NCBI RefSeq assembly: GCF_023023025.1
Contig: NZ_CP095481.1
Location: 5,035,001 to 5,099,000, forward strand
From: Amycolatopsis sp. WQ 127309
GTDB lineage: Bacteria > Actinomycetota > Actinomycetes > Mycobacteriales > Pseudonocardiaceae
DNA length: 64,000 nt
Direction: 5' to 3'
Shown here: piece after piece, positions 3,199-49,377 of the stretch
How the letters are laid out: the number at the start of each line of letters is the position of its first letter
How positions within the stretch are numbered: the first letter of the stretch is position 1
Made by a program: the position numbers and the translations under genes
Notes under the pieces: generated by a model
The model's input: the letters and a program-made list of their open reading frames with translations, nothing else
Told to the model about the DNA's origin: nothing
Databases searched by the model: none

Positions 3199-3316
3199 GT
3201 TTCGGTGGTTTTAGCGTCAGGGAAACGCCCGGTCCCATTCCGAACCCGGAAGCTAAGCTTGACAGCGCCGATGGTACTGCAACCGAAGGGTTGTGGGAGA
3301 GTAGGACACCGCCGAA
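3199..3316 (+). rRNA. rrf: 5S ribosomal RNA
   Basis: About 118 nt. The conserved 5S core CCCATTCCGAACCCGGAAG is at about 3234-3252 and the closing helix pairs TTCGGTGG with CCGCCGAA. It sits about 80 nt after the 23S 3' end, as in ordinary rrn operons, and is followed by a strong terminator. Ends are inferred from the terminal helix. Confidence 0.97.
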
Positions 3317-3326
3317 CATTTCGTTG

Positions 3327-3384
3327 AAGAGGGGCCTGGCCCGGTCGAGAACCACGGTTCTCCCGGGCCAGGCCCTCTTTTTAT
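3327..3384 (+). terminator. rrn operon terminator
   Basis: A long GC-rich hairpin pairs AAGAGGGGCCTGGCCCGG with CCGGGCCAGGCCCTCTT and is followed by a T run (CTCTTTTTAT). It lies right after 5S and should end rRNA transcription. Confidence 0.93.
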
Positions 3385-3452
3385 GCCCAAAACCAGCGCT
3401 GCCGGCACCGCGGGACCCGGTCGACCTCCAACCGTGTCGACCCTCCCCGTCA

Positions 3453-4109
3453 CACGTGCCGGCTTCTGAAGCACGTGTTGGTTGTCTGATCACGGGAGTC
3501 GGCTTTCCAGTCACGCGAGTTGACCCTTCAATCACGCGGGCCGGCGCTCTGCTCGCGTGGTGACCCGTGAATCACTGGTGTCGACCTTCTGATCACGGGT
3601 GCCGGCGCCTCAATCACGCGAGCAGACCGTCCGGGTACGCGAACCGACTGTCTAGGTACGCAAGCCGACCGTCGAAGTACGCGAGCCGACCGTTCGGGAC
3701 GTGAGCCGACTGTCCGAGTACGCGAACCGACCGGCTGGGTACGTGAGCTGACTGTTCGGGTACGTGAGCCGGCTCTTCGGGCGCGCGAGCTGCCCTCGCG
3801 CGGTGCGCGAGTTCCGGCCTCAATCACGCGAGATCCGTCCGGAGTCACGTGGATCCCGGCCGGCTCACGTGAGTCCGCCCGGGATCACGCGAGATCCGGC
3901 CACAGTCACGCGAGATCCGTGCGGGATCACGCGAGCTGCGGCTCCGATCACCCCGGCGCCCGGCGCCCGGTCTCACGCCCTCACGATCGAGTGATGCCCG
4001 CCGGATCACCGGTGATGCCCACCCAGTCACGAGAGATGCCCCGCGGATCACGTGAGATACCCCGCCAGTCACGGCTGAAGTCTCCCCGCACGCTGTCGAT
4101 GCCCTATCG
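3453..4109. repeat. Degenerate 21-bp tandem array, about 31 units
   Basis: Units begin with CACGCGAG or a variant (CACGTGAG, TACGCGAA, CACGGGAG). Read by eye, unit starts fall at 3453, 3472, 3491, 3512, 3533, 3554, 3573, 3594, 3615, 3636, 3657, 3678, 3698, 3719, 3740, 3761, 3782, 3804, 3825, 3846, 3866, 3886, 3907, 3928, 3949, 3974, 4007, 4028, 4049, 4070 and 4089. Most steps are exactly 21 bp, with a few of 19-22 and a slip near 3974-4007. Several units carry the palindromes TCACGTGA or CACGTG. Because 21 is a multiple of 3, all frames show seven-residue protein repeats, but I see no ribosome binding site or family, so I call it non-coding. A second array of the same unit is at 41614-41739. 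Confidence 0.85.
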
Positions 4110-4340: not shown

Positions 4341-4610
4341 CTGGCTCACCTGGACTGGCCGTGAATAGGGCCCAACTCGGGCTACAGCGGCTGGCTCCCT
4401 GGACTCGCCGCGGCATTGTGCCTGACCTGAGTGCGGCAGCTGGCTCACCGGGCTGGCCGAGGACAGGACCTGACTCGGGTTGCAGCAGCTGGCTCATCGG
4501 GCTGGCCGACGATAGAGCCTGGCTCGGGCTACGGCTGCTGGCTTACGGACTCGTCGCGGATGGGGGCTACGACTGCTGGCTCACAAGACTTGTCGCGGGT
4601 GGAGGCCGCA
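4341..4610. repeat. Degenerate 49-bp tandem array
   Basis: The word CTGGCT(C/T) recurs at 4341, 4391, 4440, 4489, 4538 and 4576, giving steps of 50, 49, 49, 49 and 38. Surrounding words (GACTCGGG, GGGCTGGCCGA, GGGCTAC) recur in register. The unit differs from the 21-bp array just upstream. The stretch from 4110 to 4340 is GC-rich with short GGCTGGCTGGCTGG runs and no gene I can support. Confidence 0.7.
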
Positions 4611-4714
4611 GCGGCCTGGGTTACCGGACTTGGGCCGGATGGGGACTGAGTGGGACCCTGCGTGATCAGCGCCGTAGCTCTTGGGGCATGACTTGCGAAC
4701 TGGGCACAAAGAAA

Positions 4715-4742
4715 GGGGCCGGGAGCGAAAGCTCCCGGCCCC
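4715..4742 (-). terminator. Terminator of the L,D-transpeptidase gene
   Basis: A perfect 12-bp stem GGGGCCGGGAGC / GCTCCCGGCCCC encloses a tetraloop (GAAA on the plus strand, TTTC in the minus-strand transcript). On the minus strand the stem is followed by TTTCTTTG. It begins 18 bases after the stop codon of the gene read leftwards. Confidence 0.88.
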
Positions 4743-4759
4743 TGACCAGACAACCGCAG

Positions 4760-5971
4760 TTACTTCACCGCTGAGCCGGCTTGCCAGTCGGCCCAGGACT
4801 TGGACCAGTCGCCGTACAGGTCCCAGACTGGGAGCTGGGGGCCGCCCGAGTTGGTTACCTCTACTACGTCGCCCAGGCCCAGGTTCTGGAAGAACCACTG
4901 GGCGTTCGCCGCGTTCAGGTTGATGCAGCCGTGGGAGACGTTCGAGCTTCCCTGCTGGCCCACGCTGTTCGGGTTCTCGTGGACGAACTCGCCGTCGTTC
5001 GAAATGCGCTGTGAGAACTTCTCGTTGGAGCGGTACGCCTTCGGGTCGGGCGGGCAGACGCCGTACGTGCACGAGTCCATCGTGTAGTTGGCCTGCTTGT
5101 CCGAAATGATGTGCGCGCCCAAATGCGTCGGCGTCGCGTCCTTGCCCATCGAGATGGGCATGGCCTTCACCATGGCGCCGTTGTGGAAGATCTGCATCTG
5201 CTCGGTGTTCCCGTCCGCCTTCGCGATCCAGGAATCGTGCACCTTGTACGTCTCCGTACGATCCTCGGCACCGAAGACGCCGTTTCCGAAATCGACGCCG
5301 TAGATCTTCGCCGTGACCTTCAGTGTGGTGCCGGCCTTCCAGTACTCCTTCGGCCGGTAGTGGACGTTCGAATCGTCGATCCAGTACCAGCTGCCCTCCT
5401 GCTTCGGCGTCGACTCCACCGTGAGGGCCTTCTCGACGTCCGCCTTGTTCTTGACGGCGATCTTGCCGAAGCTGAAGACGATCGGCTGCCCCACACCGAC
5501 ACCCGTGCTCGCCACCGCGGACGGTGCCGGGATCAGGTTGGCGTTGGCCTGCTTCTTCGGGGCGATCGTGCTGATCTGGTTGTCCTGCTCGATCGGCTTC
5601 CCGTCGGTGCCCTGGGCGTGCGCGACGATCTTGTACGTCGCGCCGTAGCCGAGCGGTTCGCTGGACGTCCAGCTGAGGGAGTCCGTCGCCAGCTTGCCGG
5701 CCACCGGCTTCCCCTTCGCCGTGTTGGTCACCGTGACGTCGATGAGCTTCCCGTTGGCCGCCTTGACGACGACGGGGGTCGACGGGTTCACGTTGGCGCC
5801 GCCCGCCGGCTCGAACGTCACCGCCACCGGGGTCGCGGATGGCGCCTCGGATCCGGACGTCGGCGCCCCGCCGGTGGGCGAACCACCGTCGTCACCGGAC
5901 GAGCAAGCGGAAAGCAGCAGTGCTCCGGCGAGAATCCCGGCCACCGAAAGTAAAGTCTTCTTGGGGAGCAT
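4760..5971 (-). CDS. L,D-transpeptidase lipoprotein (YkuD family)
   Basis: A 403-residue exported enzyme expected to form 3-3 cross-links in peptidoglycan. The N-terminus MLPKKTLLSVAG... is a lipoprotein signal with lipobox LLLSAC (Cys about residue 22), followed by a Ser/Gly/Thr-rich linker. The middle holds Ig-like domains of the kind seen in mycobacterial LdtMt2. The C-terminal YkuD domain has the catalytic signature SHGCINL with Cys near residue 345. The start is the ATG at 5971, not an upstream in-frame codon, because only this choice puts the signal peptide at the terminus. It is monocistronic, with its own terminator, and is separated from the rRNA operon by the tandem arrays. The exact Ldt class is not assigned. 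Confidence 0.93.
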   Translation of the reverse strand: MLPKKTLLSVAGILAGALLLSACSSGDDGGSPTGGAPTSGSEAPSATPVAVTFEPAGGANVNPSTPVVVKAANGKLIDVTVTNTAKGKPVAGKLATDSLSWTSSEPLGYGATYKIVAHAQGTDGKPIEQDNQISTIAPKKQANANLIPAPSAVASTGVGVGQPIVFSFGKIAVKNKADVEKALTVESTPKQEGSWYWIDDSNVHYRPKEYWKAGTTLKVTAKIYGVDFGNGVFGAEDRTETYKVHDSWIAKADGNTEQMQIFHNGAMVKAMPISMGKDATPTHLGAHIISDKQANYTMDSCTYGVCPPDPKAYRSNEKFSQRISNDGEFVHENPNSVGQQGSSNVSHGCINLNAANAQWFFQNLGLGDVVEVTNSGGPQLPVWDLYGDWSKSWADWQAGSAVK

Positions 5972-6074: not shown

Positions 6075-6944
6075 TCACGTGACGACCAGACCAGGGGCGC
6101 CGTAAAGCCCCGCACCGGACACCGAAATCCCGTCGAGGAACTCCCGCGCCGCGTCGTACGCCTCGGTGGCCAGCGCGTCCGTGTGACCGAAGTCCAGCGG
6201 GTTCACCCGTGCGGGTGCCGGCCCGGGGAGGTACACCACCGGTACCCGGGACGCCGCGAGCGGCGCCTCCAGCACGGCCTGGTTCCGCATGCTGATCATC
6301 GCGGTGAACATCATCACCTCGGCGAACGTCCGCGGCGCGCTCGGCAGCTTCCCGGGGAACGCGCAGTCGAACACCACCAGCGACTGCGCGCCCATCGCCA
6401 GCGCCTGCCGCATCGGGACGTTCGCGACGAGCCCGCCGTCGTAGAGCAACCGGCCTTCGAAGGACACCGGCGGGAAGATCCCCGGGATCGCGCAGCTAGC
6501 CAGCAGCGGCGTCAGCAGGGGGCCGGACCGGATCAGCAGCGGCTCGGCCGTGTCGACCTGCGTGGTGACGACGCCGAGCGGCAGCGCCAGGTCCTCGAAC
6601 CGGCGGCCGGCGCCGACATGCTCGTCGATGATCTTCGTCAGGCCGCGGTTGGTGAACAGGTGCGTCTTGCTCTGCGTCAGCGTCCGGACGCGGCTGAACA
6701 CGCCGCCGGGGAACGCCTCGTCCCGCGTCATGTGCGCCCAGATGCCGCGCAGCCGCTCGATCGGGTCGTCGCGGGTCAGGGCCAGTACGGCCGCGTTGAG
6801 CGAGCCGACCGACGTGCCGACCGCCAGGTCCGGGGTGATCCCGGCCTCGGCGACCGCGCGCAGCATGCCGACCTGCATCGCGCCGAGACTGCCGCCACCA
6901 CCGAGGACGAAGCCGATCGGCCGGGGAAGATCCGCGAAACTCAT
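6075..6944 (-). CDS. Patatin-like phospholipase
   Basis: A 289-residue serine lipase or acyl hydrolase of the patatin (RssA-like) family. It has the glycine-rich oxyanion motif GGGGSLGAMQ near residue 15, the nucleophile elbow GTSVGS, and the DGG motif (LYDGGLVAN) that supplies the catalytic Asp of the Ser-Asp dyad. No signal peptide is seen, so it is probably cytosolic. The ATG at 6944 is chosen because it starts just before the first beta strand (PIGFVLGGGG). It is divergent from the LysR gene at 7015 with a 70-bp shared control region, so regulation by that LysR protein is plausible but unproven. The substrate is unknown. Confidence 0.9.
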   Translation of the reverse strand: MSFADLPRPIGFVLGGGGSLGAMQVGMLRAVAEAGITPDLAVGTSVGSLNAAVLALTRDDPIERLRGIWAHMTRDEAFPGGVFSRVRTLTQSKTHLFTNRGLTKIIDEHVGAGRRFEDLALPLGVVTTQVDTAEPLLIRSGPLLTPLLASCAIPGIFPPVSFEGRLLYDGGLVANVPMRQALAMGAQSLVVFDCAFPGKLPSAPRTFAEVMMFTAMISMRNQAVLEAPLAASRVPVVYLPGPAPARVNPLDFGHTDALATEAYDAAREFLDGISVSGAGLYGAPGLVVT

Positions 6945-14448: not shown

Positions 14449-14453
14449 GCCGC

Positions 14454-14512
14454 AAAGCCGTGAAGGCCTCCTTACCGGCTCTTATGGCCGGGAAGGAGGC
14501 CTTCACGGCTTT
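14454..14512. repeat. Long hairpin repeat, copy 1 (convergent 3' ends)
   Basis: Arms AAAGCCGTGAAGGCCTCCTT and AAGGAGGCCTTCACGGCTTT pair perfectly; the inner part ACCGG / CCGGG has one mismatch, around a CTCTTATGG-type loop. It fills the gap between the stop codons of the LLM gene and lipB and ends in TTTT. It could work as a two-way terminator. See the copies at 16814, 26743, 31685 and 55919. Confidence 0.92.
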
Positions 14513-14514
14513 TG

Positions 14515-40630: not shown

Positions 40631-41584
40631 ATGGACGTCAACCGGGTCGCGGTGGTGCTCGCCGACCACGTTTCGCCGTTCGAGCTGGGCGTCGCGTGCG
40701 AGGTGTTCGGCACCGACCGCAGCGCCGACGGCATCGAGGGCTGGGACTTCGCCGTCTGCTCCCCGGGCGGCGCGCCGATCGCCAGCTGGTCGGGCTTCGG
40801 GCTGTCCGGGCTGGCGGACCTGGACTTCGCGGCGTCGGCGGACCTGCTGGTCGTGCCGACGTGCGCGCCGCGGACGGCACCGCCGCCGTCGCCGGTGCTG
40901 GACGTCCTGCGCGACGCGGCCGCGCGCGGCGCGTGGGTGGCGGGGTTCTGCGCGGGCGTGTTCACGCTGGGGTACGCGGGCCTGCTCGACGGCCGCCGCT
41001 GCACGGTCCACTGGGTGTACGAGGCGGAGTTCCGGCAGCGGTTCCCGACGGCGCTCGTGGATCCCCAGGCGCTGTACGCCGACGACGAGGGTGTCCTGAC
41101 CAGCGCGGGCACGGTCGCGGCGGTCGACCTGTGCCTGCACCTGGTCCGCCGCCTGCGCGGCGTGACGGCGGCGACGACCCTGGCCCGCCGAATGGTGGCG
41201 GCGCCCTTCCGCGCGGGCGGCCAGGCCCAGTTCGTCCAGGCCCCGGTCCCGTCCCTGCCGGACGACTCGGTGGTGGCCGAAGCACTGGAATGGGTGGAAC
41301 GGCGGCTGGACCAGCCGTTCACGGTGGCGGAGCTGGCCCGCCGCAGCGGCCTGGGGGAGCGGACGTTCCTGCGCCGCTTCTCGGCGGCGACGGGCACGAC
41401 GCCGCACCGCTGGCTGACGGAACGCCGGCTCGACCGCGCCCAGGCCCTGCTGGAGGAGGGCCGCCTGTCGGTGGAGGACATCGCGGTGGCGTGCGGCTAC
41501 GCCTCGGCGGCGGCGTTGCGCCACCAGTTCACCCGGTTGCGGGGGACGAGCCCGACGTCGTACCGCACGGCCTTCCGCGGCTGA
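40631..41584 (+). CDS. GlxA-family regulator (DJ-1/PfpI plus AraC HTH)
   Basis: 317 residues. The N-terminal DJ-1/PfpI-like domain (RVAVVLADHVSPFELGVACE, then GAWVAGFCAGVFTLGYAGLL with the nucleophile-position Cys) is joined to a C-terminal AraC HTH (FTVAELARRSGLGERTFLRR and VAVACGYASAAALRHQF). Typical of regulators of nitrogenous-compound or aldehyde metabolism; the DJ-1 domain probably senses a ligand. It probably controls the divergent DMT transporter. No detectable enzyme role. Confidence 0.93.
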   Translation: MDVNRVAVVLADHVSPFELGVACEVFGTDRSADGIEGWDFAVCSPGGAPIASWSGFGLSGLADLDFAASADLLVVPTCAPRTAPPPSPVLDVLRDAAARGAWVAGFCAGVFTLGYAGLLDGRRCTVHWVYEAEFRQRFPTALVDPQALYADDEGVLTSAGTVAAVDLCLHLVRRLRGVTAATTLARRMVAAPFRAGGQAQFVQAPVPSLPDDSVVAEALEWVERRLDQPFTVAELARRSGLGERTFLRRFSAATGTTPHRWLTERRLDRAQALLEEGRLSVEDIAVACGYASAAALRHQFTRLRGTSPTSYRTAFRG

Positions 41585-41613
41585 CGCGCATCCGACTGTG
41601 AGCAGAGCCGTAA

Positions 41614-41739
41614 CTCGCGTGATTGAACCCGGATTTCGCGTGACTGGAGCCGGATCTCGCGAGTTACGGCCCTGATCACGCGAGTTACGGTCCTGGTCAC
41701 GCGAGTTACGGCCTTGGTCACGCGAGTTACGGCCTTCCG
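41614..41739. repeat. 21-bp tandem array, six units, same unit as 3453-4109
   Basis: Unit starts fall at 41614, 41635, 41656, 41677, 41698 and 41719, all exactly 21 bp apart. The last three are nearly identical (CACGCGAGTTACGG(C/T)C(C/T)TGGT); the first three are more divergent. The CACGCGAG core matches the array beside the rRNA operon, and both face the same way on the + strand. It sits downstream of the GlxA-type gene. No spacers are present, so this is not a CRISPR array. Confidence 0.9.
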
Positions 41740-42066: not shown

Positions 42067-43101
42067 CTACTGGAACGCGATCCAGCGGTCCAGCAGGGCC
42101 GCTGCCGCGCCGGAGTCGATCGCCTCGGCCGCTCGTGCCAAGCCGGCGCGCAGGTCGTCCTCCAGGGACGACGAGAAGCCCGTGAACGCCGCCAGGGCCG
42201 CCGCCGCGTTGATCAGGACGGCGTCGCGGACCGGGCCCGGCTTGCCGCCCACCAGCTCGCGGACGACCTCCGCGTTCGCCGCCGCGTCGCCGCCGCGCAG
42301 GTCCTCCGCCGTCGCGCGCGGGATCCCCAGCTCCAGCGGGTCGAGGCCGCGCTCGGTGACCTCGCCGTCCGCCACCACCCAGAGCGTCGACGTCGTCGTG
42401 GTGGTGATCTCGTCGAGGCCGTCGTCGCCGCGGACCACCAGCGCCCGCGTGCCGCGCCGGGCGAACACCTCGGCCAGCACCCGGGTCTTGTCCGCGTACG
42501 CGCAGCCGATCAGCGCGCTGCCCGGCTGGGCCGGGTTGGTCAGCGGGCCCAGCAGGTTGAACGTCGTCGGCACGCCCAGTTCGGACCGGACCGGGCCGGC
42601 GTGGCGCAGCGCGGGGTGGAACGCCGACGCCAGGAAGAACCCGACGCCGACCTCGGTGAGGCTGCGCTGCACCTCCTCCGGCGGCAGGCTGATCCGCACG
42701 CCCAGGGTCTCCAGCACGTCGGCCGCCCCGGACTTCGACGACGCGCTGCGGTTGCCGTGCTTGGCCACCGGCGCGCCCGCCGCCGCCGTGACGATCGTCG
42801 CCATCGTCGAGATGTTCACGGAGTTCGAGCCGTCACCGCCGGTGCCGACGATGTCGACGGCCGGGCGGTCCAGCTCGACCCGGCGCGCGTGCGCCAGCAT
42901 CGTCGCGGCCATGCCGGCGATCTCCGCGGGCGTCTCGCCCTTGGCGCGCAGCGCCACCGCGAACCCGGCGATCCGGGCCGGGCTCGCCGCGCCGCTCATG
43001 ATCTGGTCCATCGCCCACGCCGTGTCGTCCTCGGACAGGTCGACCCGCGCGATGAGCTGCTTGAGCAGGGGTGGCCAGGTGCGGGGGACCGGGGTGGTCA
43101 C
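42067..43101 (-). CDS. trpD: Anthranilate phosphoribosyltransferase
   Basis: 344 residues. Tryptophan synthesis. [15 protein letters not shown] and [18 protein letters not shown] are the PRPP/anthranilate binding motifs. The GTG at 43101 is chosen because it begins the usual helical N-terminus ([20 protein letters not shown]); the frame upstream belongs to the receiver-like gene. It stands apart from other trp genes, as in mycobacteria (Rv2192c), next to ctaE. It follows the receiver-like gene by 5 bases, so the two are one unit. Confidence 0.94.
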
Positions 43102-49094: not shown

Positions 49095-49377
49095 GTCGCC
49101 GGGTGCGCAGGTCGGCGGTGGGGAGGGCTGGGTCGCGGCTGAGCGCGACGCGCTCAGCCGTTGCCGTGCCCGGCGGCCATGAACACGGTCGCCGAGTGCG
49201 CAGGTCGGCGGTGGCGAGGGTCGGTTCGCGGCTGAACGCGGTGCACTCGGCCGGAGCTGTGCTCAGCGCGGCCGTGAACACAGTCGCCGGGTGCACCTGT
49301 CGGCGAGGGCTGGGTCGCTGCTGAGCGCGATGCGCTCGGCCGGAGCCGTGCCTGGCGCGGCCGTGAACGCGGAGTCG
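49095..49377. repeat. 94-bp degenerate tandem repeat, three copies
   Basis: The word GTCGCCG(G/A)GTGC occurs at 49095, 49188 and 49283 (steps 93 and 95), each followed by GTCGGCG, a GGCTGGGTCGC-type word, GCTGA(G/A)CGCG and (C/G)TCAGC or CTCGGC words in the same order. A partial fourth copy begins near 49371. The gap 48954-49496 contains no other gene I can support; it lies just after the DnaQ-UvrC stop on that strand. Confidence 0.75.

Follow-up and report, generated by a model that had tools for sequence, protein, structure and literature searches.

Positions 3453–4109 of the stretch analysed here (the window, 64,000 nucleotides of the Amycolatopsis sp. WQ 127309 chromosome) raise the question of what a long and regular tandem repeat might be doing between the end of an rRNA operon and the gene that faces it. 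The first-pass annotation had described the interval as 31 units of 21 bp directly after the operon, with starts nearly all exactly 21 bp apart and a core that is the best-kept part of the unit, and had read it as a possible protein-binding array in which every core faces the same side of the helix.

The array behind the rRNA operon

The features around the array are as follows:

3201..3317, + strand: gene for 5S rRNA, closing the rRNA operon upstream of the array (Rfam RF00001, 98.8 bits)
3328..3382, + strand: rrn intrinsic terminator upstream of the array, a G+C-rich hairpin and then a T run (read from the sequence)
3432..3449, + strand: leader, a variant unit CCGTGTCGACCC... (from the sequence)
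3450..4089, + strand: 21-bp array of 31 units with the core TCACGCGAG or a variant of it, almost all of one orientation (approximately the 3453–4109 of the first-pass annotation)
3635..3811, + strand: nine consecutive variant units within the array, six of them starting GTACG and not TCACG (from the sequence)
4706..4742, - strand: hairpin and T run, which probably terminate the convergent gene (read from the sequence)
4760..5827, - strand: convergent gene (ORF calling; an alternative upstream start at 6115 is possible)

The array stands as described, both by segmentation, which returns 31 units from 3450 to 4089, and by autocorrelation, which at lag 21 reaches 0.531 over 3453–4109, where 1000 dinucleotide shuffles average 0.278 ± 0.018 and never exceed 0.336; the values observed for this stretch at lags 42 and 63 are likewise matched by 0 of the 1000. 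The core is the most conserved portion of the unit, and the placement between the rrn terminator and the next gene, 4760–5827, also holds. The wording on spacing proves a little generous: 22 of the 30 spacings are exactly 21 bp, in a segmentation that penalises other steps and so favours 21, and the remaining eight are of 18–20 or 22 bp. All units run in one direction, except for a single reverse-looking unit near 3553. Elsewhere, several one-direction arrays likewise have a leader like CCGTGTCGACCC on the side of the stop codon, as judged by eye at those loci; the word CGTGTCGACC is found 36 times in the genome sample introduced below as against 7 times for the reversed word, and units of the GTACG sub-family recur at the far end of other arrays. 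Searched with Rfam at gathering scores, the whole window yields rRNA only.

A near-identical copy of the rrn terminator lies downstream of two other rrn operons in alignment. Both opposing units at the window locus have ordinary terminators, which makes a terminating role of the array superfluous there, and since it lies beyond a complete rrn terminator, its own contribution at this place may be small. The convergent gene reads from its protein sequence like an L,D-transpeptidase. Relatives of it were found at 55 loci, 43 of them in Amycolatopsis and up to 91% identical, which in itself points to this genus as the source of the window; the orthologous gap behind the gene holds at least two units in 17 of these 43, a count in which several contigs stop before the gap is complete, and unit number and direction vary. 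Two further tandem repeats occur in the window: one of 49 bp in 4.6 copies at 4341–4565, in the space separating the array from the convergent gene, whose words are rare (0–3 matches in the genome sample), and one of 93 bp in 3 copies at 49095–49368.

A dispersed family at the 3' ends of genes

The same unit, a 9-bp core TCACGCGAG with a 12-bp variable spacer, recurs throughout the host genome, a single contig of 11.13 Mb, in which exact pairs TCACGCGAG-N12-TCACGCGAG number 57 per strand and the reversed pattern 0. Scanning a 1.48-Mb sample of this genome, with 1344 called genes, by a weight matrix of the unit gave 65 array clusters, as against 1 in the reversed sequence. The sample consists of 74 blocks, 34 selected because an exact core pair lies there and 40 contiguous (0.8 Mb) but in array-dense parts; genes were called with a simple codon-score script in place of a standard gene finder, and the script skips rRNA. 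Of the 65 clusters, three belong to the window array, and some gaps hold two. The window itself contains a second array:

~41602..41738, no strand assigned: second array, head to head (<<<>>>>), with the palindrome CTCGCGAG at 41656–41663 (weight-matrix scan)
40631–41584, + strand, and 42067–43101, - strand: convergent genes flanking the second array (gene calling)

With a second array in the window and a family found genome-wide at 3' ends, the rRNA-linked scope of the first-pass annotation was too narrow. Three of the four rrn operons do have homologous arrays downstream, differing by unit-sized steps (the fourth has none within 1.5 kb), though an rRNA-specific role is rejected as the main one because the family is genome-wide. 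Along the chromosome, the pairs listed, to ~10.66 Mb, are dense at ~3.2–5.8 and 10.3–10.7 Mb, moderate at 0–1.9 Mb and sparse at ~5.8–10.3 Mb; judging from which strands carry the four 5S genes, replication may start somewhere in the interval 0–3.9 Mb, and the arrays may follow one chromosome half.

The architecture of the family is rigid. Of 332 steps between adjacent units in the sample, counted over the range 15–27, 327 are of exactly 21 bp, as are 153 of 155 where the spacers are at most 60% identical; in three other species the figure is 133 of 133. One lattice step away from an exact core, core letters are kept at 64–89% and spacer letters mostly at 41–63%, the exceptions in the spacer being CG at positions 13–14 (71–85%) and two further letters (70 and 77%) on the upstream side. 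A core conserved above its surroundings and set at a fixed helical spacing, as in protein operators, is found in this genome, with the spacing recurring in the three other species and the better-kept core recurring across species at the fusA2-like site discussed below, though not significantly at apt. Arrays come in three layouts. In the head-to-head one, units face each other across CTCGCGAG or a second centre, and the start-to-start distances of the cores are mostly 41+21k and 30+21k; in the others, units stand tail to tail or all run in a single direction.

By context, the 65 clusters divide into 34 in convergent gaps, 29 in co-directional ones (a figure that includes the three of the window array, its rRNA uncalled by the script), 1 in a divergent gap and 1 at a sample edge, with 0 inside genes. 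Leaving out the window array, 61 of 62 arrays lie closer to the 3' end of a gene than to any 5' end, as against 47% of random intergenic points (p = 3e-19), at a median distance of 15 bp, and all 26 of the co-directional ones are nearer the upstream stop than the downstream start. Within the contiguous 0.8 Mb, an array-dense portion, arrays occupy 10 of the 126 gaps between convergent genes, 12 of the 473 between co-directional ones and 0 of the 125 between divergent ones. Two genes have their stop codon within a reverse core, and three more within a weak forward core. Among 41 arrays from 40 stretches of three other members of the genus, selected for holding a pair, the nearest gene end is 3' for 37 and 5' for 4; 21 are convergent, 16 co-directional, 3 divergent and 1 without context, and 0 lie inside genes.

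The explanation that we favour, tentatively and with belief almost evenly balanced, is that of a dispersed, lineage-restricted Amycolatopsis repeat family of 3' ends, REP-like in position, whose core would be read by a putative protein at a transcription-unit boundary; the 21-bp family may, in other words, mark the ends of transcription units. The arrays between called divergent genes, 3 of 41 in the other species and 1 of 65 in the own sample, count against a boundary, as does the phase drift of the window array, whose spacings depart from 21 bp in 8 of 30 cases.

Corresponding gene ends and the spread of the repeat

The main rival, which we hold to be somewhat unlikely, is a selfish or neutral REP-like repeat, with units spread by core-dependent copying and persisting at 3' ends as the places of least harmful insertion. 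Patchy occurrence speaks for it. A search for the unit in related genomes, as the first-pass annotation had proposed, finds exact core pairs in 27 of the 50 sampled Amycolatopsis genomes (16 of 26, own included, then 11 of 24 more), and in 3 of 271 genomes from the rest of the taxonomic family, with 1 to 3 pairs each (G209, G004 and G261, all of other genera). Three related genomes whose fusA2-like protein is 93–94% identical (G298, G299, G318) have zero exact core pairs, so any function of the pairs would be dispensable or replaceable. The homologous arrays behind three rrn operons are also in keeping with a copied repeat.

A close relative in outward form is the REP/BIME class, which the available part of PMC3733652 describes as dispersed, high-copy and extragenic, located 3' of coding regions and in convergent or co-directional gaps, and as forming head-to-head, tail-to-tail and head-to-tail groups, many of them foldable, with GTAG- and CGTC-tagged REPs included. 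The 21-bp family is also high-copy, dispersed, extragenic, downstream of genes and grouped in both directions. As far as that part of the source goes, it differs in its unit, a REP being a palindrome of 20–40 bp and the 21-bp unit (TCACGCGAG+12) not being self-complementary as a whole. The end letters seen to be shared in it are CGTGA/TCACG. Its steps are rigid, palindromes arise only from inverted units, and a RAYT gene is absent: the RAYT-type Y1 tyrosine transposase (PF01797) was found in 0 of 26 genus genomes, own included, and in 5 of 14 control genomes, which tells against the neutral repeat while removing the known mover only. Most likely, then, the family is a dispersed repeat that resembles the REPs in where it lies and how it is spread, without being a REP in structure. 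With the prokaryotic satellites and VNTRs, of which the available part of PMC6749651 gives 23 for Amycolatopsis mediterranei (the term "21 bp" being absent from its main text, to the extent available), it shares intergenic tandem repeats of variable copy number; from what that source presents, it differs in having one unit at many loci, an inverted organisation and 3'-end placement. Among the matches listed in a literature search mostly outside subscription journals, none describes the 21-bp family.

The same gene end can be followed across species for two genes, fusA2-like and apt; these names, like relA and xdhC-like, are putative and were read from the protein sequences. Behind the fusA2-like gene, family arrays stand at 4 of 30 loci (L142, L143, L150, L151), L170 being left out of the comparison, and variant-unit arrays at L147 and L148; several of the other loci have a CGTGAGTG...CACTCACG palindrome or another hairpin, and others almost no gap. 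Behind apt, arrays stand at 3 of 30 loci (L172, L175, L178), the nearer group otherwise having other palindromes, and L187–L198 show no array or palindrome by eye. Such other palindrome families at corresponding sites in relatives count for a neutral repeat as well as for a 3'-end element. The fusA2-like arrays of four species speak against a neutral repeat, their cores being nearly frozen beside diverged spacers: core differences range from 0/45 to 3/45 and spacer differences from 36 to 42%, with p ≤ 6.5e-4 in all six pairs; cores deviating from the consensus at more than 3 positions were excluded from this count, and the pairs are non-independent, both of which favour a conservation reading. 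The first pair has 0/45 core differences as against 19/48 in the spacers, the spacer counts at this site including the stretch after the last core. This conservation could be mimicked by independent gain of consensus units, or could stem from the copying process itself, and in the apt trio the contrast between core and spacer is not significant (p 0.06–0.34).

The 3' gaps of this genome are shared with other repeats. A dispersed hairpin with the 14-base arm GTGAAGGCCTCCTT gives 63 matches in the 1.48 Mb, one full hairpin counting as two, as against 0 for the reversed control; smaller hairpin families accompany it, and 76 of 77 matches to all the hairpin arms searched are intergenic. Among convergent gaps, a dispersed hairpin is present in 0 of 34 with an array and in 31 of 104 without (p = 7e-5), the hairpin families used, H1–H4, having been chosen from array-free gaps; co-directional gaps are uninformative on this point (0 of 25 with an array vs 9 of 434 without, p = 1). 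Copies of the dispersed hairpin with the 63 arm matches, near-perfect and of the form AAGCCGTGAAGGCCTCCTTACCGG...CCGGTAAGGAGGCCTTCACGGCTT, lie in convergent gaps of the window at ~14449–14514, 26731, 31687 and 55915. A 42-bp palindrome, CGTGAGTG-N26-CACTCACG, often with the centre GGTTCTAACC, occurs in 47 of the 50 Amycolatopsis genomes (0 to 495 copies each), with 28 copies in the own genome, those of the own sample being at G000 3589197 and 7585167. Its length equals two 21-bp units, its arms are often non-complementary by eye, and in other species it occupies 3' gaps where arrays sit. The ends CGTGA/TCACG are common to the array unit, the 42-bp palindrome and the dispersed hairpins; most of the hairpins counted for these ends are copies of one common family, so that they do not provide an independent count.

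Against a neutral repeat, then, stand the placement, which, with a median distance to the 3' end of 15 bp and all 26 co-directional arrays next to the upstream stop, is tighter than harm avoidance alone seems to predict, the exclusion of hairpin families from convergent gaps that hold arrays, and the fusA2-like cores. The rigid step, together with cores kept at one orthologous site as the spacers drift, favours reading by a protein, and the 3' placement with the hairpin exclusion favours a role at transcription-unit ends. On these grounds we infer that a protein may bind the arrays and that transcription may be stopped or insulated there.

Folding, and a possible boundary of transcription units

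A further possibility, to our mind quite improbable, is that the arrays work at the RNA level, as bidirectional intrinsic terminators or as protectors of mRNA 3' ends, with inverted units acting solely through a hairpin that has no U tract. Folding of 63 of the 65 arrays (two longer than 320 bp were left out) gives this idea its footing: the 28 head-to-head arrays have mean z values of -8.9 and -9.1 on the two strands, and the 8 tail-to-tail ones, most of which form strong hairpins, -5.5 and -6.0. Convergent gaps without arrays are structured too, with a median z of -5.5 and 66% below -4 (n = 76), as against only 7% of divergent gaps (n = 176), and arrays exclude the dispersed hairpins from the gaps that they hold. 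The 27 one-direction arrays, at -1.1 and -1.2, are as a group no more structured than chance would give, with a few single arrays lower, and neither is the window array, at -1.3 and -2.0; both tell against the hairpin reading.

If the hairpin were a selected trait, arms within an array should pair better than arms taken across arrays. They do not do so on average, with 8.2/12 positions paired both within and between arrays and p = 0.23 for the summed mutual information, and arm compensation as a selected trait, which inspection by eye had suggested, is rejected on average by this test. Perfect arms are found at 3 of 20 centres, one of the 20 looking doubtful, as against 0.20 expected (p = 4e-4), and the central arms of the apt trio stay complementary at 12, 11 and 12 of 12 positions; both observations lean towards the hairpin, whereas the fusA2-like site conserves the core better than the spacers. 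Intrinsic terminators without a U tract and clusters of hairpins have been described (PMC8355165), and on the available part of that account the likeness lies in hairpins directly behind the stop codon, the difference in the 27 of 63 folded arrays, that of the window among them, that run in one direction and show no special fold when taken together, and in a core conserved as sequence at the one site so tested.

These results also bear on the protein-binding array of the first-pass annotation. What survives is a core that appears to be read sequence-specifically on a rigid 21-bp lattice, as suggested by the exact steps (327/332 and 133/133) and the fusA2-like cores. What does not is the purely one-faced model, which misfits a family where 36 of 63 folded arrays have inverted units, most of them forming strong hairpins; a one-faced protein array therefore does not cover the whole family.

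Loading of Rho on the one-direction arrays, as repeated rut sites in C-rich unstructured RNA behind the stop codon, is very improbable. These arrays are, in the unit direction, C-rich and G-poor (mean C 0.38, G 0.27, n = 28) besides being unstructured as a group, and those in co-directional gaps mostly run away from the upstream stop, 7 agreeing and 2 disagreeing, with the rrn array in agreement. The orientation bias is not significant, there being so few such gaps, and C/G in the window array is only 1.12. To our knowledge, rut sites require neither a fixed 9-mer nor a 21-bp step. A DNA-uptake-type signal, with inverted pairs doubling as terminators, can be dismissed as extremely improbable and was rejected as a candidate: a fixed 9-mer, frequently in inverted pairs behind genes, does recall the uptake sequences whose link to terminators is mentioned in the available part of PMC2267715, but numerous scattered single copies are not seen, 218 of the 228 copies of TCACGCGAG in the sample lying within arrays, all noncoding, with 6 noncoding and 4 coding copies outside, so that, relative to what that part of the source describes, the 21-bp family differs in being almost confined to fixed-step noncoding arrays.

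We return to the putative protein-read boundary. Under it, the cores would be recognised as sequence by a putative DNA-binding protein (an RNA-binding one is less likely), which would line up along the array, one per two helical turns of 21 bp. The end of the transcription unit so covered would form a boundary at which polymerase reading through is stopped or slowed from one or both sides. At head-to-head arrays, the transcript would also form a long hairpin, able alone to end or protect the message, and behind the rRNA operon, the normal terminator being in place already, the array would serve as an additional barrier separating the opposing gene from the heavy transcription of rRNA. A more far-reaching proposal, in our view unlikely, is that in part of Amycolatopsis a putative lineage-specific protein, reading TCACGCGAG at every second helical turn behind stops and forming a DNA-bound polymer, would act as a road-block terminator or insulator, with the arrays, the 42-bp CGTGAGTG palindromes and the dispersed hairpins, many with CGTGA/TCACG ends, as interchangeable solutions competing for 3' slots.

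In the high-G+C Actinobacteria, transcripts often end without the textbook hairpin and U tract. For the question of how transcripts end and how convergent genes are insulated in these organisms, the family offers a compact, countable element that sits exactly there, and one for which natural replicates exist, in that one and the same gene end is found across related species with an array, with another palindrome or with nothing. It thus makes two questions testable: what marks transcription-unit ends, and by what route families of dispersed repeats come to share one genomic slot.
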